In this document: piece by piece, positions 8,634 through 63,600 of the stretch
Numbering within the stretch: the first letter of the stretch is position 1
Layout: the number at the start of each line of letters is the position of its first letter
Assembly: GCA_030272155.1 (NCBI GenBank)
Contig: CP126205.1
Coordinates: forward strand, 3,336,501 to 3,400,500
Direction of reading: 5' to 3'
Origin: Tetradesmus obliquus
Lineage: Eukaryota; Chlorophyta; Chlorophyceae; Sphaeropleales; Scenedesmaceae
DNA: 64,000 nucleotides
Translations under genes and position numbers: made by a program
The notes under the pieces: model-generated
Database searches by the model: none
What the model saw: the letters and a program-made list of their open reading frames with translations, nothing else
What the model was told of the DNA's origin: nothing

Positions 8634-10616
8634 TTACATCTCACCGGTGATCTTCTTCTTCAGCTCGTCAACATCCCTGAAGGGAAAACAGGCAGAAAAA
8701 CCAGACACGAAGTTCAGCAAGAGGCACTTGAGACACTAGCAAAGGGTGTTTTGAACTGACTGGTACTGTTCCCTGGCTGCTGCACCTTCATATAAATGCC
8801 ACCACCTTGCACAGTGCAGAAGGGCCTGACTTCGACAGGATCAAACAGTGTTGCTCGAGGTGCAGTTGCTGTTTCTCCTAGCTGCCGGAGCAATGGGCAA
8901 GTGACACAGAAAGCTGCACTATTAGGGTCAGGCGGCTGCTCCTGTTGCTGCAGCTGCAGTGACTGCTTCTACAGCTGTTATCCACTGCTGCTGCCTCCTT
9001 CTGCAATACGTGCTACTGCTATGCTGTTGATAACATTATGACATGACTGGTCCTGCAATGTCGAACCGCTGCGCAATGGCTGCATTGCAGCATCCGTTTC
9101 TCTGCAAGGACCCGTCGCTGCACACAGCTGCAGTGCAGAAGCACCGCCCTCCCTGCAGCTGGCATGGCCCCATCCCTTGGACTACTGCAGAACTGCTGTT
9201 ACAATTGCTGTTACTCCCCCCCAGCCTGCTGCTCACTTGACAAGCTCCTCGCGGCTGCTCTGTAGGGCACCACCAGGTATCAACAGCAGCATTGTGGAGA
9301 TGAGGGTTAGGCAGGCGCAGCAGCAGCAGCGAAGGCAGCAAGCACACAGCAGCCACAAACGGTCAGCAGCAACGCTTGCAGGATGCCTGAGGACCAGGGC
9401 GGCCTAGGCCTGACAGCAGGCACACACTGTCATGATAAATGCTTGGTGTTGACGGATGCATATCACAAAGCAAGCCTGGCTGCACTCCTCGCCACGTGGA
9501 TGCAAAAAGTTGCAAGTTAGAAACATGAATACACAATGCATGGATATGCTTTCGACACGCACTTCACTGCCGTAGGCACTGGCATCCTCTCGCCGCTGCT
9601 TGCACCTGCTGGCTGCAAAGCTGCAGGAGTTTGACGCACAGACGCGCTGATTCTGCCACTGTTAGCTCAGACTGTCCATGCTGCTGCTGGCTGCACAGGT
9701 GCAGCAGTCAATGCACAGGCACGGTGATTCTTTCATCATATGTGTTAGCGCTGTCACCCCACGCACCTTGAACAGCAGGTAGCGGTAGATGAACCAGGAG
9801 GTGTAGCCAAGGCCAACCAGCTCCATGAACTTGGGCAGCTGCAGCAACGCACAAGGGCAGATGCCGTTTAGTTATGCAAAAGTATAATAGCAGACAAAAA
9901 GAGCCCTAGGGGAACCAGAACAGCCAGAAAGGAGGGCTGCGCAGCAGGCACAGCAGTACAGCAGGCTTCCCATTGCTACCAGAGCACCTGCTACACGTGT
10001 ACCAGCAGCACAGCTTTGGCCGCTGAAGCTGCTGTTCTGCAATACTCATCGTTTGAAATTTCACTGCGTGGCTGTACAGGCCAGCTGCTGCGTCAGTGCT
10101 GCGTACAGCCCCTTCCCTCCTCTGCTCTCACCAGAGGGATGCCGTTGAGTGCGGTCACCAGCGTGCTGCTGAACCAGATGAGCACGATACCGCCCACGCC
10201 ATACGCCACAACGGTGGTCTTGTTCTCCACCTTGTCCCACTGCGCAGGCAAACACACAGACAAACGACCGCGAGCAACGTAGCGTCAGCTACCCAGTGAT
10301 CACAGCATACAGAGCAGCGCTGCTGTCCTGCGAGCGTGATCCTACCTTCTCCTGCAGGTCCTTGACCATCTGGTCCACCTCCACAGTCTGCTCAGTGTCC
10401 TGGGCGCGTGCAACCACGCCCCTCCTCTGCAGAAGCAGCAACGCCGAGCAGCGGCATCAGTAAGGGTTGTGCCCGCATCTAAGATGCACGTATCAACGAA
10501 TGGGATAGCAAGAGCACCTGTGGCAGCACCGGGCGAGGGACAGCACTGCAGGCCAGACGAGCTGGCCTGACAGTGGCACCAGTGCGCAGAGCGCTGCAGC
10601 GCGCGGTAAGAGCCAT
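8634..10616 (-). CDS. CURT1: CURT1/CAAD-domain thylakoid membrane-curvature protein
   Basis: Six exons on the minus strand join in frame to 141 aa: 10616-10518, 10426-10346, 10239-10132, 9838-9767, 9259-9237 (a 23-nt microexon) and 8676-8634. The N-terminus (MALTARCSALRTGATVRPAR) looks like a chloroplast transit peptide. Exon 3 encodes YGVGGIVLIWFSSTLVTALN, the first hydrophobic helix. Exon 4 gives LPKFMELVGLGYTSWFIYRY, the second helix. The microexon SSREELVK and last exon DVDELKKKITGEM form the C-terminal amphipathic helix. This matches the compact CURT1 family, which oligomerises at grana margins to bend thylakoid membranes. The microexon is required to reach phase and fits the family consensus. 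The stop codon overlaps a TGTAA. No exon copies were seen in its introns. Confidence 0.95.
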
Positions 10617-12742
10617 TGTATCGTTTTTAAGTTGATCAAGTCGTTTGCGCCTGGTATGCAGCAGCGGTGTGGGCGGGAAGTCTTGTAGTGGGTGCCAAGG
10701 CAAGACCCTCGGGCCCAAGGATCTGAGCTTGCTGACGTCGTGATCTTCGTTCAAAAGTTGTGAAGCATGTAGACTTAAAACTATATATGCGGTCGTGCAT
10801 GGTGGCATCTTTTCGTATAAGGCAGACTAGCAGCGTTTGCAATTCAAACATCTCAACTGCGTTTTGAGCATTCATCAGCACACGGTTCAATTGATTAAAC
10901 ATACGGTATGTATATATACTGTTTGCGATGGACGTTTGTGCGCTCAGGCTGGAAGTTCGCACTGCTCCACTTGCTGCTGCGGTCCACCTGTCACCCAGCC
11001 ATGGCGGGGCCTGGCCAGCCCAGGCTGAGCTCAGCTCAGCAGCGAACATAGCCGTCACAAATCACAACAACACTCAACGAACGAAATGATTACCGCCACA
11101 TTTGTCTTGCTGTCAACAAGGTGTCAACAAGCTGTTGCATTGTAGAGGTGGGCGGTGCCAGCTCTTGGTCACAGAAACAATGTACGGTGCATATTTGTTA
11201 CCCAGCGAGCACCTCCTACATTAGAACACACACGCAATAGCCTTAGGCTGCTAAATGCACCGTGCACGCATCTCATTCTGGAAAATCACAAAGCCAGATG
11301 ATGAAGCCAGTCCGACTGTGGGCCACAACACCAGACCATCTGATAATGCATGATGTGGCAATGCGGTAGGCAAAGCTCACTCCATTGCAAAAAATGTCAG
11401 CCAGGTGGCATCTGTTGTGCTATGCAAAAGGCTTGCAAGCTCCACAACATACAACAGTACTAGAACTAGTTCTGTGACTGCAAGCACAGCTGCTGAAGTA
11501 AATGGCTGAACTACATCTACCTTCAGCACCCGCATCATGCAGTGTTGCAACTGCTGACACAGGCTCGGCAGCTGCAAGTTTTGATACTTGTGCAGCTGCA
11601 GGTGACATGCAGACCGTCTGTGACTACTAGTAGTGCTTCAAGACAGCGGCCAAGCTTTAATTGAATGCCCTACATATGGCTATACTGCGTGACTTCAAGT
11701 CAAAACACGCACAGCCAGCTTGCATTGGATCAGCAGCAGTGGAGCCACACTGCATACAGAAAGTGTCACCAGCACGCGTCCTATCAGAACTGTACCTGCA
11801 CTGCAGGTACTAGAAGGCCACACTGCATACAGAAAGTGTTACCAGCACGCGTCCTATCAGAACTGTACCTGCACTGCAGGTACTAGAAGCCAACAGGCCC
11901 GTGATCATACTGATGATGACAAAGGAAGACGGCGTCCATGTCAATTTCTTATGTTGCCGCCACTGCAGCCCAGCCAAGCAGCCCTGCTGCAACCATTGCG
12001 ATGCTATTCGGCTTGGGGTTCAGCAGTACTGCTGCATGACTTGACTCCTGCAGCTCACACAATACATGCACAGACAAAGAAACATAGGTATGTACACACA
12101 CAACACAGCACAACACAGCTTTGAACAGCATACAAGTGGTCCTGCCGGCCTTCCCTCTCCCCATGAACCTTCCTGCTGATAACGTTGCTCAAGTTCAAAG
12201 CAGGGAATCATCATATCATATTCCACTCAGCAGCAGCCCTGCCCAGAGCCACTTGATGTGCTGCTGATGTGGCAGTGAGCGTCGCATTACCGCTCCCAGT
12301 GGGCCTGCTAAGCACAGCTGCGCAGGCATGAAGGGCGCCTCACAAACATTACTGCTGCTCGGCCTGAGCAGAGCAGTGCCGTAGTTATTCTATAACAGAG
12401 ACACACCAGCCCAACCAGCAAAGAGTCACAGAGTATCAGCTGATCATATCAGGTCACGTGTTAGTCAAGCATGTTAGTCATGCATGTTAGTCGAACTCCC
12501 TCACCCTCAAAACACACAAACTGACACACAACCGAAAGATAAAGCAGTCACAGCCAGCAGATGAAGTGCAATGATATGCCATGCCAGTGAAAAGCAGTAT
12601 TCATCTGCCCATGTAGCTGCGCACCATCAATTAGCCCTCCAGACATTGGAGTTCATACAGCAACAGCCCAATGTACAGCCCAGACCCTTCCCAGTAACCT
12701 TCCGCCGCACACCAACACCGAACCAGACAATGACACATGTAG
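10617..12742. other. Intergenic stretch upstream of CURT1
   Basis: Two minus-strand genes flank this stretch. Apart from the tandem repeat at 11745-11890 I see no supported gene or RNA. The part next to 10616 should contain the CURT1 promoter; the part next to 12743 should contain the 3' UTR of the following gene, but no nearby TGTAA (TTACA on the plus strand) was found. Confidence 0.5.
11745..11890. repeat. 73-bp tandem duplication
   Basis: Two near-identical 73-bp units (starting at 11745 and 11818) contain GCATACAGAAAGTGT and CCTGCACTGCAGGTACTAGA. They differ at about one position inside the unit (CACC/TACC). No gene is visible around them. Confidence 0.92.
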
Positions 12743-39480: not shown

Positions 39481-41695
39481 TCAGCAAAGTGGGCAGCAGA
39501 TATGTTGTATAGCAGGGTGTGTGTGGAGCGTTCTAGCTCTGGCCTGCTTGTTTGCTATGCCGCACGTGGCCGGGGTTGCCAGGTTTGTGTGTGCAGTGCA
39601 TTGTGTTGCGCAGCAGCGCACAACTCTTCTGTACATGTGCCCTGGTGTGCTGTGCTCTTCTGCGGACATGATTTGCTTGGGGAACATGGTGGCATTGGTG
39701 ATTTTGCAGCTCCAGGTGCGTATGTTTTGCTTGTTGGGAAGATCAGGCGACGGTGTGCGTGAGCAAGGCAGCTTGCTGCAGATGCCTTGCGGATGGGTTG
39801 AGCAACCATCAGAGTCATTGGTATGCAGGTCAACTGGTGCATGTAGTTTGTCCCTCGTACGTATGTTGAGATCTTGTGCTTCTGGATGCTTGCGCCAGGC
39901 ATCAACCGCAACATCAGCACTCTTGTAAGTCCCACTTGCAGTTATGTGGCTCGTGCTGCTGAGTGTTCACTAGCGGCAGCGGCACTGGAGTTTGCACATT
40001 TTGTCCGCTGCTATGCTAAGCAGTGTCCCTGTTACGTAGGAGACGTGTGCAATTTTGATGATTTGCCTGTGTAAACTGCGGCATCGAGTGTGGTGTGCCA
40101 ATGGCTCTGACATTCAGAGAGGCATATGCACCGCACTTGATCCAGAAGCAGCACCCCAGGTGGCGGGCGGCTGCATTTGCCTCCCCGCCCTGTGGCTGCT
40201 GCTGCTCTTGCGTGTGGCGCCGGCACCCACCAGCAGCTAGCATCAGTGTGGCGCCTTGCGATAGTGCGAGGAGCGCCATGCTGTGCAGCGATGCGCACAA
40301 ACAACCTGATCAATGACATGTTTGTGCAAGGGTGATCAGAGCACACAGCAGGCAGGGAGCTTGACAGCATCGCCTGCAGAGAGCCGAAGCAGAGCTGCCG
40401 TTGTTACAGCTGCTGCTGCTGAGCTCGTTATCAGTTTTTGTGCTGAGTAGCTGCCTATGCAGCTACTGGCGCCAATATCAGGTGCCATGCTGCCTTGTAT
40501 GCTGCCTTGTGATCGGCGGTCGCTGCGGGCTGTAGTCTGGGGTATGTGGGCGTTGGAGGGATCGCTGTAGCACGACAAGCACCACTGGACTGACAGCAGT
40601 AAGAGCGTGCGTATTAGCAGCTCTTGATGCTGTGTGTTGCTTTGTTGTTGCTTTTATCGCAGTTGATGTGGGCAGCTGACAGCAGCTGTCTGCATTGTGG
40701 CAGATCGGTGACGCCTTGTTGGGTCTCACAGTCAAGCATGTTTTTGGCACTGGCGGTAGCAGTGTGTGTCGGCGTCGGAGGACCAAGTGCTGCTGGCCCT
40801 CCTACCTTTTGGAACGCTGAAAGGGGCCTTGCATGTGTGCGTCTTTCCTATATCTGTGTCAACAGTGTCTGTTTTACCAAGGCTGCTTCAGTGTCTGTTT
40901 TACCAAGGCTGCTTTTGTGTCTGTTTTACCAAGGCTGCTTTTGGGACAAGTGCACGCGTTTCAACAGCTGTAGCGGCACGCTGTGGACACCTGTGGCATA
41001 GCATGCGTACTGCGGCTGCTCAAAAGGCTGCTGCATGCTGCTGCCTATGATATCTGTTCACCTCTCAAAGCCTGTGCCCACAAGCAAAGGCAGGACGTTG
41101 GGTTTGATTTATGTGGTGAGGAGTGGAGAGAACCGTTTGATCATGAGCAAGTTGTCTTGGGCAGTAGCATCGATCCCACCATGCCTGTGCTTAGGTCGCG
41201 ACTTGGTTGGAGGATGTGTCTCTTACCTACGCGCTAAGCGGATTATTGCGTGGTTGCCCTCGTGTGTGCATGCATGCTGTGCGTGCACAGGCAGGTGCAA
41301 AATTAATCCAGTGTCAAGAAGGGATCGTGAGTTGGGGGTGGCGGTGGTGCAGGAAGAACTGTGTCATTTTGGACCAAGTGGCTACCTTATGGTTGAAGGT
41401 TTAGGGTTGAAACCCTTGGCCTAAACCCTTGGCCTAATAGCTGTGCTCAGCAGGCTCTGCCGGTGGGCTGCTCAGGTGGGCAGTGGCGTCTCTTCGCAAA
41501 ACTGCGCAGTAAAAGTGGGTGGTGTGCTCGTGCTGAGCCAGTGAGGTTGCCGGCATGTGTGTTGCTGGTTGGGCGCATATTGGCTGCTCACAGTCCCATG
41601 TGGTGCATTGTCTTGTGTACACTTGTCAGAAGCCAAACATGCAGAGGCCGGCATACAACTGTGTCTGTGAGCAGTTGTAGCGTCTGCAAGGCTTT
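39481..41695. other. Intergenic stretch left of the transposon
   Basis: No gene is supported. Open frames up to 129 codons occur (for example around 41035-41424) but show no recognisable domain or splice context. A short tandem repeat is listed separately. The four bases before the transposon are CTTT. Confidence 0.5.
40864..40941. repeat. 26-bp tandem repeat, three copies
   Basis: The unit GTGTCTGTTTTACCAAGGCT plus GCTT and two variable bases occurs three times with starts at 40864, 40890 and 40916. Confidence 0.92.
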
Positions 41696-42394
41696 CACTG
41701 GGTCTGAAAAAGAATAAGCAGCCCGATTCATGCATCAAAATAGACTTGTTTTGCTGCAATCTGCTGTGCTTATATTAAGCATTGGTGCCCTGTAGACGTC
41801 AGAAAACGATTAAACGGGTCACCCTCCTGCCCTATGAAAACTGGCGGGCTTGTTTCGACCAAGCACTCTGTGCTGTCCTGCAGTGCTCGAACTTTTTTGT
41901 TGTGTTCTCATGCACCGTTTTGCTGCTCTGCCTGCAGCTGCATGCACGTGTGCGTGATGCATGGTCACATCCTTGGATGAGCTGGCAGGTGTGCTTGCTG
42001 TGTGTGTGCTGCGCAATCCTGGAATAACATGTTTTGGGTCACTGTGTTTGTGGGTAGTTTTCATCGTGACAGATGCGCTGCAATGCGCGCGTCTCACCTT
42101 GCTGCTGCTCGCTGCTGGTGTCACCGGAGTCCTGGGCAGGGCGCGGCTGGTGCCAGCCGGGCCAGAGCGGCTGTATGCAGCAGGCTGTTTGTCCTGAAAG
42201 TTAAGTTGTTATTTTTTTGGTACTTTCTGGCCGAGACGTGGGTGGTAATGCCTGCTGCTCAGACTTCGGTTCGCGCCAACGCAGAGTGCAACAGCAATGG
42301 CAGAACAGCCTGAAAATGGCTGTACAGGCGCAAACCTTGCCGCACTGTAAAATGGTAATCATTGTACCGGCATTATTCTTTTTCCGTTCCAGTG
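41696..42394. mobile_element. A unit, left copy (699 bp, inverted ends)
   Basis: It begins CACTGGGTCTGAAAAAGAATAA. Its other end, read on the minus strand, is CACTGGAACG followed by GAAAAAGAATAA, so the termini are imperfect inverted repeats of about 22 bp. It contains no recognisable protein. It is preceded by CTTT and followed directly by B1. Confidence 0.85.
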
Positions 42395-42604
42395 AAGCGG
42401 GCGGTGGTTTGGTGGTTTGGGGTTCCAGCCTTCGTGTCACCTGCTGCGACCTCTGTTCGCTGCATCGCTCCGTACGTCGATTGGGCATTGATTCTTCTAC
42501 TTACTACGTGCAGCGCAGCCTGAAACTGTCACGCATGGCCTAACACCGTGTGCTGAACAGCCTTTTCACTGTGATTTTGCCCCGGTTCTTGTCGCACAAG
42601 CTCT

Positions 42605-44356
42605 TTGTTCCTCAAACATATCGCGCAAAGTAAATATCATTACATCAGAAACCAGAAGCAAGACCTGGAGCGCCACCGACAGCTGCTGGAGCTGACGCTG
42701 CGACAGCAGCAGCAGCACAACCAACTGCCTTGTGATCTCGCAGCAGGCGACCAACTAGCAGGTGAGGCATCACTCAAAGTTCAAATGCAGTATATATGGC
42801 AACGTCAGCGCTGCAGCTGCCCCGTCACCTGCACTGCAGTGCAGCAGCAGTGCACTGACAGTCTCCCCTAACATGCTGCTTGGCAGCCAGCAGGTGCCTC
42901 TCTTCAGTGCAACAGCATGTTTCAAAATAAAGACATGCTAATTGTTGCAAACTCATGCTATTTCCTGCAAATCTGGATGGTTCCATGCAGGCTAATACAA
43001 CAGCAGCACCTCAGCTGCCTTGCGGCAGCAGCAGCGCTGCGGCAGGGACCTCAACCCAGCCATGCATACCAGGAGCCAGGCCAAGAACCCTGATCAAGGT
43101 AATTGTTGTACATGTTATAGTGTACAGATGTGCCAGCAGCAGCTGCAGCATCAAGCAGCACATGCACTCACAGCAGCAGCACCATATCCTGCAAGCGTTA
43201 TGTTACTGCCCGTAACAGTCAGCTGACAGCTCTACCTGTGCTGCTTTTTTACATAGCCACCCTCAGCATCAACTACAGCCTGATAGGTGTCTTTCAGTGT
43301 CCTGACATCCTTCTGAATGCTGCTGATGTCCAGCTCCTGTGTGAACAGCCTCATCAGCTCCGCCTTGCACTGCGCAACTGTCAGCGTCGCCTTGTCCTGC
43401 AGTGCAAGCCACTTCTGCATTCTGCCCTGCAGTCAGCCATGCACGTGCTCAACTACTTTGTGCATGTCACTGCTGAGCTCTGGCAGGTAGAACCTGTCCT
43501 CATCTTCAATGCCAATGGTGCTGAGGTCAGCCCCCTTGTGCACCTTGTCATTATCCCAACTGTACTTCCACTGCTCACGCGCGCCCAGCTTTGCTAGGTT
43601 CGCTGGCTTCTCTGCCTCCTCCCTGAACAGCTGCATGATCTTTGTCCACTCCTCTGACGTCACGGCGCGTGCACGCTTGCCTTTCTTGGTCTGCATGTGG
43701 TTGCAGGCACACAGCAGCAGCAGCAGGGCAGGGGCAGACCAGTTCAGCAGTTGTCAGAAGCAGCACAGGCCAGCTATGTGCCATGGCTCAACACTGGAAA
43801 GCTTGAAAGTGTACCTTCCTACAGCACACAGCTCATGGTCTGGAAGGCCCGCTGTGACCATGCTACGCATATGCGGTACATGCAGTGCCAGCAGGTGATG
43901 CGTACCGGTGCTGCTCTGCCCTGCAGAGCATGCCAGGGTTTTGGCAGCAGCTACGAAAAGACAGCATATGCTGCATGCAACCGTGTGCCACAGGTGCAGG
44001 CATGGGCTGCTGAAGCTCATGCAGTCAGGGGCCAGTATGAACATGAGGGGCAGCTGTGCAGCATCAGCCGGCACAGCTGGGACATCGTGATCCTAAAACC
44101 CTTTGGGGTTTTGATCGAGGTTCAAGGGGAGCAGCACACATGCAAGCTCAACACTCAGGCTAACAGCAATGATGACAGTTTGGCCAGCAGAGACAACAGA
44201 GACAGGGCTCTGGCTAAGGCAGCAGTGGCGCTGGGTTACAGCGTGGTCTGGCTGCTGCCTGGTGGTGAGCGTGGCCGGCTGCAGCGCTGGACTGCCCTGA
44301 TCAAGCAAGCAGTGCTGGACAGGAAAGCCAACAAGATTGCAAAGCTCTACCCATGA
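42605..44356 (+). CDS. PD-(D/E)XK-like nuclease gene in B1 (plus strand)
   Basis: The confident part is the last exon, from about 43707 or 43715 to the stop at 44354-44356. It encodes CRACQGFGSSYEK followed by SWDIVILKPFGVLIEVQGEQ-H and ALAKAAVALGYSVVWLLPGG. The spacing D...E-V-Q-G-E-Q-H, then a helix and a hydrophobic strand, resembles Vsr/DUF559-type PD-(D/E)XK nucleases. Two upstream exons are plausible: one ending at 42763 with a GTGAGG donor (QDLERHRQLLELTLRQQQQ) and one ending at 43098 with GTAATT (PQLPCGSSSAAAGTS). The start codon was not found; the first ATG inside the last exon is near 43832. The intron before the last exon contains the transposase's last exon on the other strand. 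The role in transposition is unknown. Confidence 0.6.
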
Positions 44357-45114
44357 TGCACTCACCAGGTAAACCCTGTTTGGGTCACGGTCAGCTGGCA
44401 TGCCGGTGGTGCCCGTGTAGAACACCAGCAGCAGTGCGCCCAGCCTGTAGTTCACCGCTATGTAGTACTTGAGCTTCATTGGGTTCTTGAGTGTGGGTGG
44501 GAAGGCTGTCTCGTAGGTGTCCTCGTCACCAGCCATGGCCCAGCCGTACTTGCTGTTCACTACCATGTACATGGTCTTTGCATCTATCCATATCACACAT
44601 TCCAGCTCGCTGTCAGGCACCTGCAGGTGTGACTGCGCTGTGGTCATCCTATCCTCACGCTGCCGCTTCTTCAGCTTAGGCTTGATGCAGAGCTTTGTAT
44701 AGGACAGCGCTGGGCAGAGCTCCTTCAGCCTAGTGATCAGCGTGTCGTCGGACACGTTGGTGCTGCTCACAATGCCTGCCACTACTGCACTCTCTTTTTC
44801 AGCTGTGCAATAGACTCATAGGGGCTGTTCTTGCCGTCTGCGCGCCACTGCAGGATAACATCCAAGACCTGCTGCACCTGCTCAGCTGACAGCTTGCGCG
44901 GCCTGCCGCTGTTGCTGGCTTTGCCGTTGACCGAGCTGTCCTTAGCCCACTCCTGGCCCCAACGAAGAACAAAGCCGCGAGCGTCTGCTGGGACTTTCAG
45001 CTTGAGAGCGCGGCAGTGTTTGCGGAACTCCTTGGTGGCTGCATCTATATTGCACTTTGCCTCGGCAAAGCTGAGCGCTGCAAGCACACGTTGACCGTCT
45101 TCATACACCTTCAT
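43232..45114 (-). pseudogene. Tc1/mariner-like DD34E transposase in B1, with nonsense codon
   Basis: Exon 1 starts at ATG 45114 (MKVYEDGQRVLAALSFAEAK) and encodes a helix-turn-helix region with a GRPRKLS AT-hook-like linker. It runs to 44782, where the frame changes by -1 into the segment 44782-44366, which contains the first catalytic Asp (VIWIDAKTMYM). A GTGAGT intron (44365-43691) follows. The last exon from 43690 carries the second Asp (SWDNDKVHKG) and, 34 residues after it, the Glu (LSSDMHKVVEHVHG). In this copy the next codon is TGA (43433-43435), cutting off about 67 C-terminal residues present in B2; hence it is called as a pseudogene, although the catalytic triad remains. Confidence 0.78.
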
Positions 45115-45491
45115 ACTGGTCTCCCTGGGGTCAGGTCAAAACAGCCAGTGTGACGACAGTTGTGTTGGGAGTGAGTTGTTTGGTGACGGTGTCATGTTGT
45201 ATTGGTGTATGTGCGGTGTGTGCAACTGCGCCGCCGGTTGGCTTAAACCCTGAGCCCTGCTGTGGTTTTGGGCGGCATCAGAAGCGGGCGGTGGTTTGGT
45301 GGTTTGGGGTTCCAGCCTTCGTGTCACCTGCTGCGACCTCTGTTCGCTGCATCGCTCCGTACGTCGATTGGGCATTGATTCTTCTACTTACTACGTGCAG
45401 CGCAGCCTGAAACTGTCACGCATGGCCTAACACCGTGTGCTGAACAGCCTTTTCACTGTGATTTTGCCCCGGTTCTTGTCGCACAAGCTCT

Positions 45492-47243
45492 TTGTTCCTC
45501 AAACATATCGCGCAAAGTAAATATCATTACATCAGAAACCAGAAGCAAGACCTGGAGCGCCACCGACAGCTGCTGGAGCTGACGCTGCGACAGCAGCAGC
45601 AGCACAACCAACTGCCTTGTGATCTCGCAGCAGGCGACCAACTAGCAGGTGAGGCATCACTCAAAGTTCAAATGCAGTATATATGGCAACGTCAGCGCTG
45701 CAGCTGCCCCGTCACCTGCACTGCAGTGCAGCAGCAGTGCACTGACAGTCTCCCCTAACATGCTGCTTGGCAGCCAGCAGGTGCCTCTCTTCAGTGCAAC
45801 AGCATGTTTCAAAATAAAGACATGCTAATTGTTGCAAACTCATGCTATTTCCTGCAAATCTGGATGGTTCCATGCAGGCTAATACAACAGCAGCACCTCA
45901 GCTGCCTTGCGGCAGCAGCAGCGCTGCGGCAGGGACCTCAACCCAGCCATGCATACCAGGAGCCAGGCCAAGAACCCTGATCAAGGTAATTGTTGTACAT
46001 GTTATAGTGTACAGATGTGCCAGCAGCAGCTGCAGCATCAAGCAGCACATGCACTCACAGCAGCAGCACCATATCCTGCAAGCGTTATGTTACTGCCCGT
46101 AACAGTCAGCTGACAGCTCTACCTGTGCTGCTTTTTTACATAGCCACCCTCAGCATCAACTACAGCCTGATAGGTGTCTTTCAGTGTCCTGACATCCTTC
46201 TGAATGCTGCTGATGTCCAGCTCCTGTGTGAACAGCCTCATCAGCTCCGCCTTGCACTGCGCAACTGTCAGCGTCGCCTTGTCCTGCAGTGCAAGCCACT
46301 TCTGCATTCTGCCCTGCAGCCAGCCATGCACGTGCTCAACTACTTTGTGCATGTCACTGCTGAGCTCTGGCAGGTAGAACCTGTCCTCATCTTCAATGCC
46401 AATGGTGCTGAGGTCAGCCCCCTTGTGCACCTTGTCATTATCCCAACTGTACTTCCACTGCTCACGCGCGCCCAGCTTTGCTAGGTTCGCTGGCTTCTCT
46501 GCCTCCTCCCTGAACAGCTGCATGATCTTTGTCCACTCCTCTGACGTCACGGCGCGTGCACGCTTGCCTTTCTTGGTCTGCATGTGGTTGCAGGCACACA
46601 GCAGCAGCAGCAGGGCAGGGGCAGACCAGTTCAGCAGTTGTCAGAAGCAGCACAGGCCAGCTATGTGCCATGGCTCAACACTGGAAAGCTTGAAAGTGTA
46701 CCTTCCTACAGCACACAGCTCATGGTCTGGAAGGCCCGCTGTGACCATGCTACGCATATGCGGTACATGCAGTGCCAGCAGGTGATGCGTACCGGTGCTG
46801 CTCTGCCCTGCAGAGCATGCCAGGGTTTTGGCAGCAGCTACGAAAAGACAGCATATGCTGCATGCAACCGTGTGCCACAGGTGCAGGCATGGGCTGCTGA
46901 AGCTCATGCAGTCAGGGGCCAGTATGAACATGAGGGGCAGCTGTGCAGCATCAGCCGGCACAGCTGGGACATCGTGATCCTAAAACCCTTTGGGGTTTTG
47001 ATCGAGGTTCAAGGGGAGCAGCACACATGCAAGCTCAACACTCAGGCTAACAGCAATGATGACAGTTTGGCCAGCAGAGACAACAGAGACAGGGCTCTGG
47101 CTAAGGCAGCAGTGGCGCTGGGTTACAGCGTGGTCTGGCTGCTGCCTGGTGGTGAGCGTGGCCGGCTGCAGCGCTGGACTGCCCTGATCAAGCAAGCAGT
47201 GCTGGACAGGAAAGCCAACAAGATTGCAAAGCTCTACCCATGA
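45492..47243 (+). CDS. PD-(D/E)XK-like nuclease gene in B2 (plus strand)
   Basis: It has the same gene structure as in B1: possible exons ending at 45650 and 45985 and a confident last exon from about 46594-46602 to the stop at 47241-47243. The protein sequence of the last exon is the same as the B1 copy. See the B1 entry for domain evidence and uncertainty about the start. Confidence 0.6.
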
Positions 47244-48001
47244 TGCACTCACCAGGTAAACCCTGTTTGGGTCACGGTCAGCTGGCATGCCGGTGGTGCC
47301 CGTGTAGAACACCAGCAGCAGTGCGCCCAGCCTGTAGTTCACCGCTATGTAGTACTTGAGCTTCATTGGGTTCTTGAGTGTGGGTGGGAAGGCTGTCTCG
47401 TAGGTGTCCTCGTCACCAGCCATGGCCCAGCCGTACTTGCTGTTCACTACCATGTACATGGTCTTTGCATCTATCCATATCACACATTCCAGCTCGCTGT
47501 CAGGCACCTGCAGGTGTGACTGCGCTGTGGTCATCCTATCCTCACGCTGCCGCTTCTTCAGCTTAGGCTTGATGCAGAGCTTTGTATAGGACAGCGCTGG
47601 GCAGAGCTCCTTCAGCCTAGTGATCAGCGTGTCGTCGGACACGTTGGTGCTGCTCACAATGCCTGCCACTACTGCACTCTCTTTTTCAGCTGTGCAATAG
47701 ACTCATAGGGGCTGTTCTTGCCGTCTGCGCGCCACTGCAGGATAACATCCAAGACCTGCTGCACCTGCTCAGCTGACAGCTTGCGCGGCCTGCCGCTGTT
47801 GCTGGCTTTGCCGTTGACCGAGCTGTCCTTAGCCCACTCCTGGCCCCAACGAAGAACAAAGCCGCGAGCGTCTGCTGGGACTTTCAGCTTGAGAGCGCGG
47901 CAGTGTTTGCGGAACTCCTTGGTGGCTGCATCTATATTGCACTTTGCCTCGGCAAAGCTGAGCGCTGCAAGCACACGTTGACCGTCTTCATACACCTTCA
48001 T
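46119..48001 (-). CDS. Tc1/mariner-like DD34E transposase in B2
   Basis: This is the more complete copy. Exon 1 is 48001 to 47669, the second segment is 47669-47253 in the -1 frame, and the last exon is 46577-46119. The last exon has the second catalytic Asp (WDND), the Glu (VVEHV) with 34 residues between, and a C-terminal helix region (WLQGRMQKWLALQDKATLT) absent from B1. The predicted length is about 400 aa, reasonable for the superfamily. The exon 1/segment 2 frame break is shared with B1, so either it is a programmed or tolerated -1 shift (CTG AAA AAG at the overlap), a very short intron, or an old mutation. Without solving this I cannot say the gene is functional. Confidence 0.72.
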
Positions 48002-48165
48002 ACTGGTCTCCCTGGGGTCAGGTCAAAACAGCCAGTGTGACGACAGTTGTGTTGGGAGTGAGTTGTTTGGTGACGGTGTCATGTTGTATTGGTGTATGTG
48101 CGGTGTGTGCAACTGCGCCGCCGGTTGGCTTAAACCCTGAGCCCTGCTGTGGTTTTGGGCGGCAT

Positions 48166-48864
48166 CACTGGGTCTGAAAAAGAATAAGCAGCCCGATTCA
48201 TGCATCAAAATAGACTTGTTTTGCTGCAATCTGCTGTGCTTATATTAAGCATTGGTGCCCTGTAGACGTCAGAAAACGATTAAACGGGTCACCCTCCTGC
48301 CCTATGAAAACTGGCGGGCTTGTTTCGACCAAGCACTCTGTGCTGTCCTGCAGTGCTCGAACTTTTTTGTTGTGTTCTCATGCACCGTTTTGCTGCTCTG
48401 CCTGCAGCTGCATGCACGTGTGCGTGATGCATGGTCACATCCTTGGATGAGCTGGCAGGTGTGCTTGCTGTGTGTGTGCTGCGCAATCCTGGAATAACAT
48501 GTTTTGGGTCACTGTGTTTGTGGGTAGTTTTCATCGTGACAGATGCGCTGCAATGCGCGCGTCTCACCTTGCTGCTGCTCGCTGCTGGTGTCACCGGAGT
48601 CCTGGGCAGGGCGCGGCTGGTGCCAGCCGGGCCAGAGCGGCTGTATGCAGCAGGCTGTTTGTCCTGAAAGTTAAGTTGTTATTTTTTTGGTACTTTCTGG
48701 CCGAGACGTGGGTGGTAATGCCTGCTGCTCAGACTTCGGTTCGCGCCAACGCAGAGTGCAACAGCAATGGCAGAACAGCCTGAAAATGGCTGTACAGGCG
48801 CAAACCTTGCCGCACTGTAAAATGGTAATCATTGTACCGGCATTATTCTTTTTCCGTTCCAGTG
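48166..48864. mobile_element. A unit, right copy (699 bp, inverted ends)
   Basis: It matches 41696-42394 throughout where compared. It is followed by CTTT, matching the four bases left of A1. Confidence 0.85.
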
Positions 48865-49701
48865 CTTTGCATCTGCTGCGGCATGGTGGTGGATGGGATT
48901 TTCCGGATCCCGATGCATATGCCACTTTTTTTGTCTTGCTTTGCTCTTGTTTCCGGCGTTGGAGCAGCTCATTCCATCATGGAGGTGATGCAAGCGGCAC
49001 GTTTGCAGTGCTGCTGTGGGTTTGGATGTGTGACACATGCATGTTCAGAGGTGTCAGGTTGGGCATGTCACTGACACGTCAGTGCTGTGTGCACTGTCCG
49101 GCGGTGGTGCTGCTCTGCAATCAAGCTGCGCAACTCTGCTTCAACAGCCGGAGTGCTGTGTGAGCTGTTTGTGCTCCAGAGCCACTTCTTGCGTTTGGCA
49201 GCCATGCTTGTGGTGATTGCTATTCGAAGCTTTTGCTGGCTGCACTCCTCCCTAGAACGTGTGGAGTGTGTGTTGACTGGAATGGGCAGGGGTCTGCGCC
49301 TACGCATGCCCCATGCCGACTTCAACAATGCTGCGCTATGCATGCAGGCCCATCAAGCGTGGCTTCCTCGCCTGCCCTTGGGCTGTGTGTGTTTTGGGGG
49401 TACTGTTGATTTGTGCTGTGGCGCGGATGCACTGAAATTGAATCGGTTGAGCAGCTCTGGCTGTTACAAGGCTGCATGTGTATCCTAATGGGGGGTGGGG
49501 TTGCAGGCCGCGGGCGCGCCTCTGCTATGCATGTGCAATGCGCATGCTAGTGCTGCTGTGACCCTTGGTATGTGTTGCTAGCGCACTGCTACTTTGTCGT
49601 AGAACTGCCATTCAGTGAGAGCCTTGTGCTGCACCAGGGGCAGGCATGATGGTCATAAAGCAATCTACTGTCACTATGGAGCAGCAACTGGCCTGGCTAC
49701 C

Positions 49702-60627: not shown

Positions 60628-63600
60628 TTGCCAGCAGCACCAGCAGCTGCTGCAGCCCCCTCAGCAGGTGTCAGCCCAGTCAGTGCAGACCCCCACCTGA
60701 AATCTACTGCTGCTGCGGTAGAGTATGAGCAGCTGCTGCAGCGGAAGCTGGCAGAGGCTGAAGCAGCAGCAGCGGAGATCACGAGTAGGCCGCAGCTGAA
60801 GCAGCAGCGCAGAACCTTGGAGAAGCAGATCACCATGGCTGTCAGCCAGATCTCTGGCACGCAGCAGCAGGTGGGTCAGTTCTGTGACGAGGAAGGGGTG
60901 TCAGGTGTGGTTGCTCTGCATCTGCATGTTCCGCGCATATTTGGTTGTGCGGACAGCTTGAAGTGCAGCAGAGGTACAGAGCAGCACAGGCAGCAGCAAA
61001 CGCCAAAGTATGGAATTCAGCAGTCATCTCTGACCTGCTGGTTTGCTGCCCCTCATCTCGCTGCAGGTGCTGGCCAAGTCGCAGCAGCTGGTAGAAGTGC
61101 TGCGCAGCTGCGCCACACCGCAGCAGCAGGCGCTGGCCTACACTGTGCTTGCCAGCCGCGTGGTGAGCCAGTGCGAGGGCCAGGTGCAGAAGATCGGCTC
61201 CTTTGCCTACCCGCTGGCGTACGTGTGCGTGTCGGTGGGCGCTGCGGTGCCGGCCTTCATGGAGCTGCTGCTGGCCAAGCTGCAGGCGGTGCGTGCAGAC
61301 AATGGGTTTGTTGTATGTGCTGCTTGCTGAGTGTGACATTTGTGTTGTGTCCGTCGACGCTGCAGAGCGCGCTTGGTTGTAGCTGCTGCTTGCGAAGCTG
61401 CAGGCGGTACGTATGAGGAGTTGCTTTGCGGGTGGAATAGTTTGGCCAGGCTGCTTGTTCAGGTTTGCGGGGTACGGGTCACCTAGCTGGCGTGGAATCG
61501 TCTGTTGAGCATCGGGTTCAGATGAAGCAGTGTGATGGCGTGCTAGCCAAGCGCAGGCGGCGAGTGTTGTTGGGGTTGCCAGCCGTGGTGAGCCAGTGTG
61601 AGGGCCAGGTGCAGCGAATCGGCTCCTTTGCCTACCCGCTGGCCTACGTGTGCGTGTCAGTGGGCGCTGCTGTGGCAGCCTTCATGGAGCTGCTGCTGGC
61701 CAAGCTGCAGGCGGTAAGATTGTGGAACAGATTGCAGCTATAACAACCCGTGTATTCTCAGGGGCCGTGTTTAGGGACATGAAAATTAGTTTGATGTTCA
61801 GCTAAAGGCAAGTTGGGAGTTGCCTGGCCGTTACTTTCCATGTTGCAGAGGATACTGAAGTGCGCATGTTGTTTTAGTGGGATCGTGCCGTGGTGCCAGC
61901 ATTCATGGAGCTGCTGCTCGCCAAGCTGCAAGCGGTAGGTGCAACCAGGCTGTGTCGGGCTGGTGCTGTAGTGCTGTAGTGTCAGGTGTGTTGGTGATAT
62001 TGTGCTGCAATGCCAGCGTTCATGGAGCTGCTGCTCGCCAAGCTGCAAGCGGTGAGTGTAACCAGGCTGTGTCGGGCTGGTGCTGTAGTGTCGGGTGTGT
62101 TGGTGACGTTGTGCTGCAGTGCCGGCTTTCATGGAGCTGCTGCTGGCCAAGCTGCAGGCGGTGAGTTAAAAAGGTGGCTTTGCATGTGGGAACTCTGGCT
62201 AGGCTGCCTCCTACAGGCGTGTGAGGTGTGAGGCCAGCTAGAGCAAAGATCGTCTGTTGGGGATTGGGTGCAGATGACGCAGTGCCGTAGCTTGCTGGCA
62301 AAGCTGTTGGCGGCGAGTGTGGTCTTGGGGTGCTGCATTCTTTGAGTCTTTGAAACAGCTTGTGGGTGTCTGCTGCATGCTTGGCCACCAAGATAACGGC
62401 TTTATCTTGCCGCCGCTGCTTCTGTTGCCGTTGCGCTGTGATCAACACCAGGCCTGCCCGCTGCTGGTGCCCAAGTACACCATGTACAGCGCAGACACCC
62501 CAAAGGAGGACTGGTTCAAGGCCTGCGGCTACAAGGAGATCGAGGACCCAAAGACAGGCGCGCAGCGGCGCGAGAACGCGGACGAGTTTGTGTCGCGCAT
62601 GACAGCCATGGTGAGCAGGGCTCGGGTGCTTGCGCATGCATGGTGTGGGTGTGCATTTGCATGCAAGGAGCAGTGTCGCGCATGACAGCATTGTGCAAGA
62701 AGCAGCTTCGGGTGTAATATACACCCAGCCCCACAGCAGTGCTGTAGGTCCTTGTGCAGCAGATGTTCTTTTCAGGCGGCAACTTGCCAGCCTGGTTGTG
62801 GAGGGTGTTTTTTTTTCGACACATGATGCTGGATGTAAAGCGGCGCAAGAATGCGGACAAGTTTGTGTCGCGCATGACAGCCATGGCGAGCGTGATGGTG
62901 GTGTTGCTGTGGGTTGGATGAAAGCGTGATGCTGGTGAGCGTGTTGGTGAGAGGGTTTTGGGTGCTGGTGCATGCAGGCGTGGTGTGTGTGCGTCAGCAA
63001 GGAGCAGCGCGGTGTCCAGGCATGCGTAGGCGGCTCAAGATGTAGGCATGAGGACCATAGTGACGCTGGGTGCAAGCACAGGGTGTGTCGTTGTGATGTC
63101 TGCTGCGTGGTGCCGACGCATGGTGCATTGCAAGCTGCCAAGGTATGTGCTGCCAGTGCACAGCGTGTTACACCTCCAACTGCCACGCTAAACTGTGCTG
63201 CGTCTATTCTGTGCGTTGCACAGGTGCTGCTGTATGGCGCCATTGTGCAGACAGCCACGCCCGGCAACCCTGCAGGCCTGGAGCATGGCTGGGCGTGGCT
63301 TGCGCGCTGCCTCAACGCGCTGCCGCCCACACGGTGAGGCTTGCGCTTGTGCCTGCCTCTTCTACGGCCCGCAGCGGCAGTAGCAGCAGCAGCAGCAGCA
63401 AGCAAATCCGCTGCGTGATTTGCAAATATCAGAATGGCCGATATAGTCGTCGCGACAAAGTTTTAACTTTTGCTACTGCACAACTGCGAATCATCAGCTG
63501 TGCGTGGGGTCACAATAGGCTGCCGGCATGCAGTGCTAGCCAGTGTGCAGCAGCTGCATGCGGTAGCTTCTAACAAGCAGCAATACCTGCCGGCTCATAT

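Follow-up and report, generated by a model that had tools for sequence, protein, structure and literature searches.

A probable composite-like DNA transposon with interlocked antisense transposase and nuclease genes in the green alga Tetradesmus obliquus

Positions 42605-45114 of a 64,000-nucleotide stretch of the Tetradesmus obliquus genome (the whole of which is referred to as the window) contain a transposase gene and, on the opposite strand, a nuclease-like gene, arranged so that the terminal exon of each lies within the intron of the other. This segment is part of the first of two head-to-tail units, and we propose, with a probability of roughly 0.6, that both belong to a composite-like DNA transposon that is built from an end repeat (R) and a core unit and encodes an IS630-like DD34/35E transposase and an antisense Vsr/EDxHD nuclease with interlocked introns. 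A first-pass annotation had placed the gene pair inside a transposon; this holds, but the element is larger than was noted, as it is bracketed by ~700-bp copies of R and in its complete form spans positions 41696-48864, in the order R-core-CAG-core-R. The two ~2.9-kb units have a spacing of 2887 bp and differ by one base, position 43433 being the only difference between the cores. Read strictly, the ends of the element give TTT and CTT, which fits either a CTTT target-site duplication or a left end that is one base longer. The features are as follows (families F1 to F4 are defined below).

41692-41695: left target-site duplication, read as CTTT, or as CTT should the element begin with the T at 41695
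41696-42394: left copy of the end repeat, R, 699 bp, bounded by terminal inverted repeats of its own, CACTGG...CCAGTG
42395-45278: core 1, 2884 bp, containing both genes
43062-43098, plus strand: nuclease exon 1, coding part, 12 codons including the ATG and 1 further nucleotide; a comparable short exon occurs in F2, F3 and F4
43099-43706, plus strand: nuclease intron, GTAATT...TTGCAG, phase 1, containing transposase exon 2 on the opposite strand
43707-44356, plus strand: nuclease exon 2, with the Vsr/EDxHD-like domain and the stop codon TGA
44366-45114, minus strand: transposase exon 1, encoding the N-terminal region and the first D of the catalytic triad; this copy is frameshifted
43691-44365, minus strand: transposase intron, GTGAGT...ATGCAG, phase 0, containing nuclease exon 2 on the opposite strand
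43232-43690, minus strand: transposase exon 2, encoding D and E at the last two triad positions; interrupted early in this copy by a stop that base 43433 creates
45279-45281: CAG footprint at the core/core junction, without R
45282-48165: core 2, one base unlike core 1
45949-45985, plus strand: nuclease exon 1 of core 2
46594-47243, plus strand: nuclease exon 2 of core 2
47253-48001, minus strand: transposase exon 1 of core 2, frameshifted
46119-46577, minus strand: transposase exon 2 of core 2, without internal stop
48166-48864: right end repeat R, identical to left R
48865-48868: right target-site duplication, CTTT

In both window units the terminal exon of each gene is enclosed by the intron of the other. 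The coordinates bear out the nesting as first described, in which the plus-strand exon at 43707-44356 sits inside the minus-strand intron at 44365-43691, and the transposase exon at 43690-43232 inside the plus-strand intron at 43099-43706. The margins are likewise confirmed: the acceptors of the two genes are 16 nucleotides (nt) apart, and 9 nt of the transposase intron remain past the nuclease TGA. The coding overlap between the strands is 0 nt. After predicted splicing the nuclease would comprise 228 residues, and its frame is intact in both units. An upstream nuclease exon had also been proposed; its end at 43098 stands, but comparison among families supports coding over its last 37 nt, from the ATG at 43062, and not further upstream.

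To place the window element (F1) in context, it was compared with the T. obliquus genome (104.66 Mb, 17 contigs), in which the related copies were grouped as F2 (C16:800132, with a near copy, F2b, at C16:1377156), F3 (arrays on C2, C10 and C6, with a close relative, F3b, at C16:1400908) and F4 (arrays on C17 and C3, and the C8 element). The same interlocked layout is present in these three further diverged families, and relatives of the nuclease frame that are 36-58% identical lie antisense in the transposase intron in F2, F3, F3b and F4. The transposase introns measure 675-710 nt, and the frame continues from one exon to the next in phase 0. On the other strand, F1, F2, F3 and F4 can each be modelled with a short exon that contains an ATG and, after it, a phase-1 intron of 608-626 nt, with a glycine codon spanning the junction; counted with the ATG, the exon has 12 codons in F1, F3 and F4 and 14 in F2. 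Such an upstream exon is needed in F1, F3 and F4 because exon 2 of these families has no in-frame ATG ahead of the conserved domain. There is one start-donor candidate in F1 and several in F2, F3 and F4, and longer in-frame starts (up to 40 codons) are possible in F3 and F4. A TR pair is common to the short exons of F1, F2 and F3 (MHTRSQ, MVYSTRS and METRR, respectively). The nuclease TGA abuts the donor hexamer (ACTCAC on the plus strand) in F2, F2b, F3, F3b and F4, and is separated from it by three bases in F1. Older, partly degraded relatives of the element are found on C16 at ~1.377-1.482 Mb and 0.797-0.801 Mb, and a fragment at C6:5464292-5464477 is 90% identical to the window transposase, with no nuclease match alongside.

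The nuclease frame is under purifying selection in both family pairs tested. Its ratio of nonsynonymous to synonymous differences per site (pN/pS) is 0.51 between F3 and F4 (95% interval 0.38-0.68) and 0.50 between F1 and F2 (0.40-0.62), where the synonymous divergence (dS) is near saturation; the transposase exons give 0.61-0.78 with intervals that overlap those of the nuclease, F1 exon 1 being compared only over the 150 codons downstream of its frameshift. The constraint on the nuclease, whose frame faces an intron, is therefore at least as strong as that on the transposase. Stops (3 to 16) interrupt each of the other five frames in which the F3-F4 nuclease stretch can be read; pN/pS is near 1 in four of these and 0.54 in frame -1, which has 7 stops. 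The close pair F3-F3b shows no constraint on the nuclease (nonsynonymous divergence 0.016, dS 0.014; 10 changed sites), as is expected after insertion. In GC-rich genomes open frames often arise antisense to genes, and the plus-strand frame could in principle be a chance product of this kind. We rejected this explanation on the selection analysis and consider its probability negligible, as the frame faces an intron rather than an exon, its relatives occupy the same antisense position in F2, F3, F3b and F4, it has at least 38 database homologues, and 15 columns are invariant among 31 of its sequences. Judged from these comparisons, the interlocked layout is real and beyond chance.

The plus-strand product is likely a DNA-cutting enzyme. 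Comparison of its predicted structure points to the Vsr/I-Bth0305I (EDxHD homing endonuclease) fold over approximately residues 78-215, both Vsr and I-Bth0305I matching the model better than Tn7 TnsA does; the PD-(D/E)XK-type nuclease proposed at first pass is thus predicted to be Vsr-like. His-Me entries do not appear in the list of structure matches, which by itself excludes nothing. Among the 15 invariant columns, E83, D125, H143 and D165, each conserved in 31/31 sequences, are residues that we take to form the EDxHD catalytic motif. The likeness to EDxHD/Vsr enzymes thus covers the fold and the invariant E, D, H and D, whereas the setting is unlike theirs, as the gene occupies the opposite strand of a nuclear spliceosomal intron that belongs to a transposon of a eukaryote, and not a phage or a self-splicing intron. 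A Cys/His cluster of zinc-binding appearance precedes the domain, and the PHROGs match is homing-endonuclease-like. A search of 5.8 billion proteins, in which the best 7997 candidates were scored, returned the homologues counted above. In 10 of the 38 the longest contig is 3.6-3.85 kb, near the length of one R-core unit (3.67 kb), which hints at circles or collapsed arrays but is no proof of them. No Pfam match above cut-off was obtained for the nuclease or the transposase, the Protein Data Bank sequence profiles gave nothing relevant and PADLOC gave nothing; pattern matches in IMG/VR (182) and in prokaryote genomes (53) included no relative.

The minus-strand gene had been described as a DD34E Tc1/mariner-like transposase. 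A D-D-E enzyme with a weak IS630/Tc1/mariner relation stands, but the element is not an ordinary Tc1/mariner transposon, because it has CACTGG/CCAGTG ends, variable 3-bp duplications that are not TA and a composite-like architecture with mobile end repeats and tandem arrays; it also carries a second gene. The likeness to IS630-Tc1-mariner elements comprises the spacing of the last two triad residues, counted by eye as 34 (F1, F2) or 35 (F3, F4), a weak IS630 profile match (NCBIfam, E 8.8e-6, 6 of 11 members) and a C(A/T)G scar considered below, and weakly suggests that the enzyme is distantly IS630-like. ISAzo13 gave no match in Pfam or NCBIfam, in a search of which a Zator profile was not part. 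The same 5.8 billion proteins include 13 transposase relatives, and the relatives from the protein searches came from jgi, lgn and ena, save OEZ86_007264 (NCBI), a T. obliquus protein that corresponds to the F4 transposase (100% identity over 62% of the query). At the level of protein sequences only, the predicted donor is read through into Val, as GTG gives, in all 10 relatives inspected (of 12), and in one protein, P0022, an exon-1-like N-terminus is joined straight to exon 2, as splicing would do.

Several observations weigh against the composite-like transposon as proposed. The window transposase is broken: both units carry a frameshift in exon 1, where two open frames overlap, and unit 1 additionally has the exon 2 stop created by the sole inter-unit difference at 43433; assembly error may be the source of these defects, and assembly polishing could also be a partial cause of the identity within arrays. 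The IS630 match scores 25.4 bits, where the curated NCBIfam cut-off is 100 bits, and the Pfam helix-turn-helix matches are all sub-threshold, the best on the window transposase pieces being HTH_32 (E 0.0042) and HTH_Tnp_Tc3_2 (E 0.039). For the nuclease, the PHROGs label is mixed ('head closure' in 7 of 12 members, HNH in 6 of 12), Foldseek alone gave no match at E <= 0.001, and the short exon of F4 (MPINNQ) is unlike the others and lacks the TR pair. The OEZ86_007264 model leaves the frame at exactly the donor residue but joins another acceptor. Finally, in three older C16 copies (1377633, 1481283 and 1399165) the nuclease frame is split or stopped while the matched transposase exon 1 stretch is open, and in one of them (F2b) both transposase exons are open. 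Decay of the frame among transposase relatives, which the first-pass annotation had named as evidence against the pairing, is thus seen in these three copies, but the frame stays open in F1, F2, F3, F3b and F4 and is under purifying selection.

The loss of the nuclease in these C16 copies beside an open transposase stretch, its position in an intron and its homing-endonuclease-like fold and PHROGs match would also suit a homing endonuclease gene living as a parasite of the transposon, having invaded the transposase intron and spreading among copies with no role in transposition. We regard this as improbable, since the start exon of the nuclease is not in the transposase intron but on the far side of transposase exon 2, sequence identity pairs F1 with F2 and F3 with F4 for either gene, and in both pairs the nuclease has a lower pN/pS than the transposase exons, albeit with overlapping intervals.

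The composite-like reading draws further on the behaviour of R, which is 699 bp in the window and 715 bp in F3 and F4, starts with CACTGG and ends with CCAGTG. It occurs in the genome in the forms R-core-core-R, R-core-R, solo R and arrays of up to ~61 cores. On C8, R-core-R is inserted in a satellite, another copy of which provides the empty site, with CTA duplicated; the satellite around the insertion shows repeat spacings of ~312 and 390 bp (L030:1-4424 and 8807-10000). Solo copies of the F3 repeat are found at C4:21612 (L046), C10:5212084 (L047) and C15:322748 (L048), with identities to array R of 99.6, 99.7 and 96.2%, respectively, and the three lie in duplications GAG, CAC and CCT; the C4 copy is only 21 kb from the contig end. 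These insertions indicate past mobility of both R and R-core-R. The arrays on C3 and C10 each contain 17 R and have lengths that fit exactly 16 cores, and the C17 array (2,095,005-2,316,560, ~221 kb) contains 58 R whose spacings, one of them 2 bp longer than the others, arithmetically fit ~61 cores. Each of these three arrays (C3, C10, C17) is enclosed by a single 3-bp duplication (GAT, TTG and CAG, the last of these at C17); duplications are not readable at the C2 and C6 arrays, which seem truncated at left. In all, the duplications are 3 bp and non-TA in 7/7 relatives with both ends read (CTA, CAG, TTG, GAT, GAG, CAC, CCT). The C17 array may have a satellite or centromere-like role, and R-like pieces also lie at C17:2416446, C3:6252419 and C5:2289758.

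Twenty-one core/core junctions were read, of which 14 contain R and 7 do not; each of the seven has CTG or CAG instead, between T and A, a pattern that indicates loss of R with a scar. Scars of the form C(A/T)G resemble those of IS630/Tc1/mariner elements. Two other origins of the R-less junctions were rejected: an IS3-like circle junction, as the three bases are CTG/CAG and not the adjacent CAC/GTG, and insertion of R into a core/core site, as these three bases do not flank R in any of three families (the F4 repeat is flanked by AGT on both sides, which differs from the CTG of its R-less junction). The solo insertions, together with CACTG-type ends and a 3-bp duplication that recall EnSpm/CACTA elements, would fit R being an ordinary EnSpm/CACTA-type miniature inverted-repeat transposable element moved in trans by another transposase, with the core as a bracketed passenger; the duplication size also fits Zator. 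Against this, R and the alignable core diverge together (71% over 663 columns and 72% over 1604 columns, respectively, between F3 and F4), in each of F1, F3 and F4, the families with resolved ends, the core is matched by an R of its own, and the scar is of the IS630/Tc1/mariner cutting kind, so that we judge a trans-mobilised R to be distinctly unlikely.

Under the preferred composite-like reading, the unit would be one ~700-bp mobile R plus one ~2.9-kb core. The transposase would act on the ends of R, mobilise R by itself, R-core-R or longer segments, and leave the C(A/T)G scar behind; T-C(A/T)G-A is exactly the product expected if cleavage fell two bases inside CA...TG and the ends were then joined with an A:A mismatch. 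The scar points to release of R by the transposase itself, in contrast with Tn7, where TnsA pairs with the transposase and whose TnsB/C/D partners are not seen in the core. More speculatively, the nuclease may cut within the element and drive unequal exchange between R copies, yielding arrays. Because R lies between a transposase start and a nuclease start, it may serve as a divergent promoter region. The genes are convergent in each core, and full-length primary transcripts would therefore be antisense over much of it; since the spliced coding parts do not overlap, antisense effects would be limited to unspliced RNA or untranslated regions. Any balanced or mutually exclusive expression of the two proteins by way of antisense RNA, as the first-pass annotation suggested, would have to act at that level. 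The interlocking would thus pack two genes into each core without coding overlap, only the unspliced RNAs being fully antisense. It might alternatively act as a switch, in which transcribing one gene keeps the other from being spliced or expressed, so that transposition and nuclease phases exclude each other. The geometry kept across families (stop at or near the donor, close acceptors, and introns within the two length ranges given above) is compatible with a switch, but close packing alone would keep the same geometry, and we hold a switch to be conceivable yet unlikely.

Of the systems considered, the element is closest in plan to KolobokP of animals, in which, as reported (Kojima & Bao 2022, PMC9587614), a Kolobok-superfamily transposase is accompanied by a His-Me finger nuclease downstream on the complementary strand. 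Also described there are long end repeats with their own inverted ends (~450 or 660 bp, as against ~700 here), monomer, solo-repeat, (repeat-internal)n and repeat-(internal)n-repeat forms, the last being that of the window, target duplications that usually flank those forms, and a DDE transposase paired with a homing-endonuclease-type nuclease on opposite strands; unequal exchange induced by the nuclease is also proposed there. The present element differs in its green algal host, IS630-like transposase, Vsr/EDxHD-like nuclease, interlocked introns and arrays of up to ~61 cores, and its CA...TG termini depart from the 5'-RR...YY-3' reported for KolobokP in the same source. The transposase matched an IS630 profile, in a set of profiles that did not include Kolobok. 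The matches listed from open-licence PMC papers, with subscription papers and Repbase outside scope, included neither another composite-like lineage nor a eukaryotic DNA transposon that carries a Vsr-like nuclease. The end-repeat and tandem-array architecture is rare, and the descriptions of it that we found are all from animals. The element is probably an independently assembled second lineage of KolobokP-like architecture, in which the nuclease, and apparently also the transposase, is of another kind. A bolder proposal, that composite-like transposons have at least two origins, in animals and in green algae, where different transposases each acquired a different homing-type nuclease, and that the algal interlock lets splicing or antisense RNA choose between a transposition and an array-amplification phase, is in our view doubtful.

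Two other repeats were observed in the window: a 73-bp unit in two tandem copies that are 99% identical (11744-11889), and repeated segments with GT-type donor-like ends (e.g. GCAGGCGGTGAGT) that resemble duplicated exons (61224-62199).

A second, apparently independent pairing of a DDE transposase, a homing-type nuclease and mobile long end repeats speaks for a functional rather than an accidental combination. The model of 'nuclease-induced unequal crossover' could be put to the test in this single-celled alga, where the families are few and the arrays clean. The reciprocal nesting of introns persists between families with proteins of only ~30-40% identity; a gene layout of this sort is unusual, and its cause is also testable. 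An array of more than 200 kb within one 3-bp duplication further shows how satellite-like DNA can develop from a transposon.
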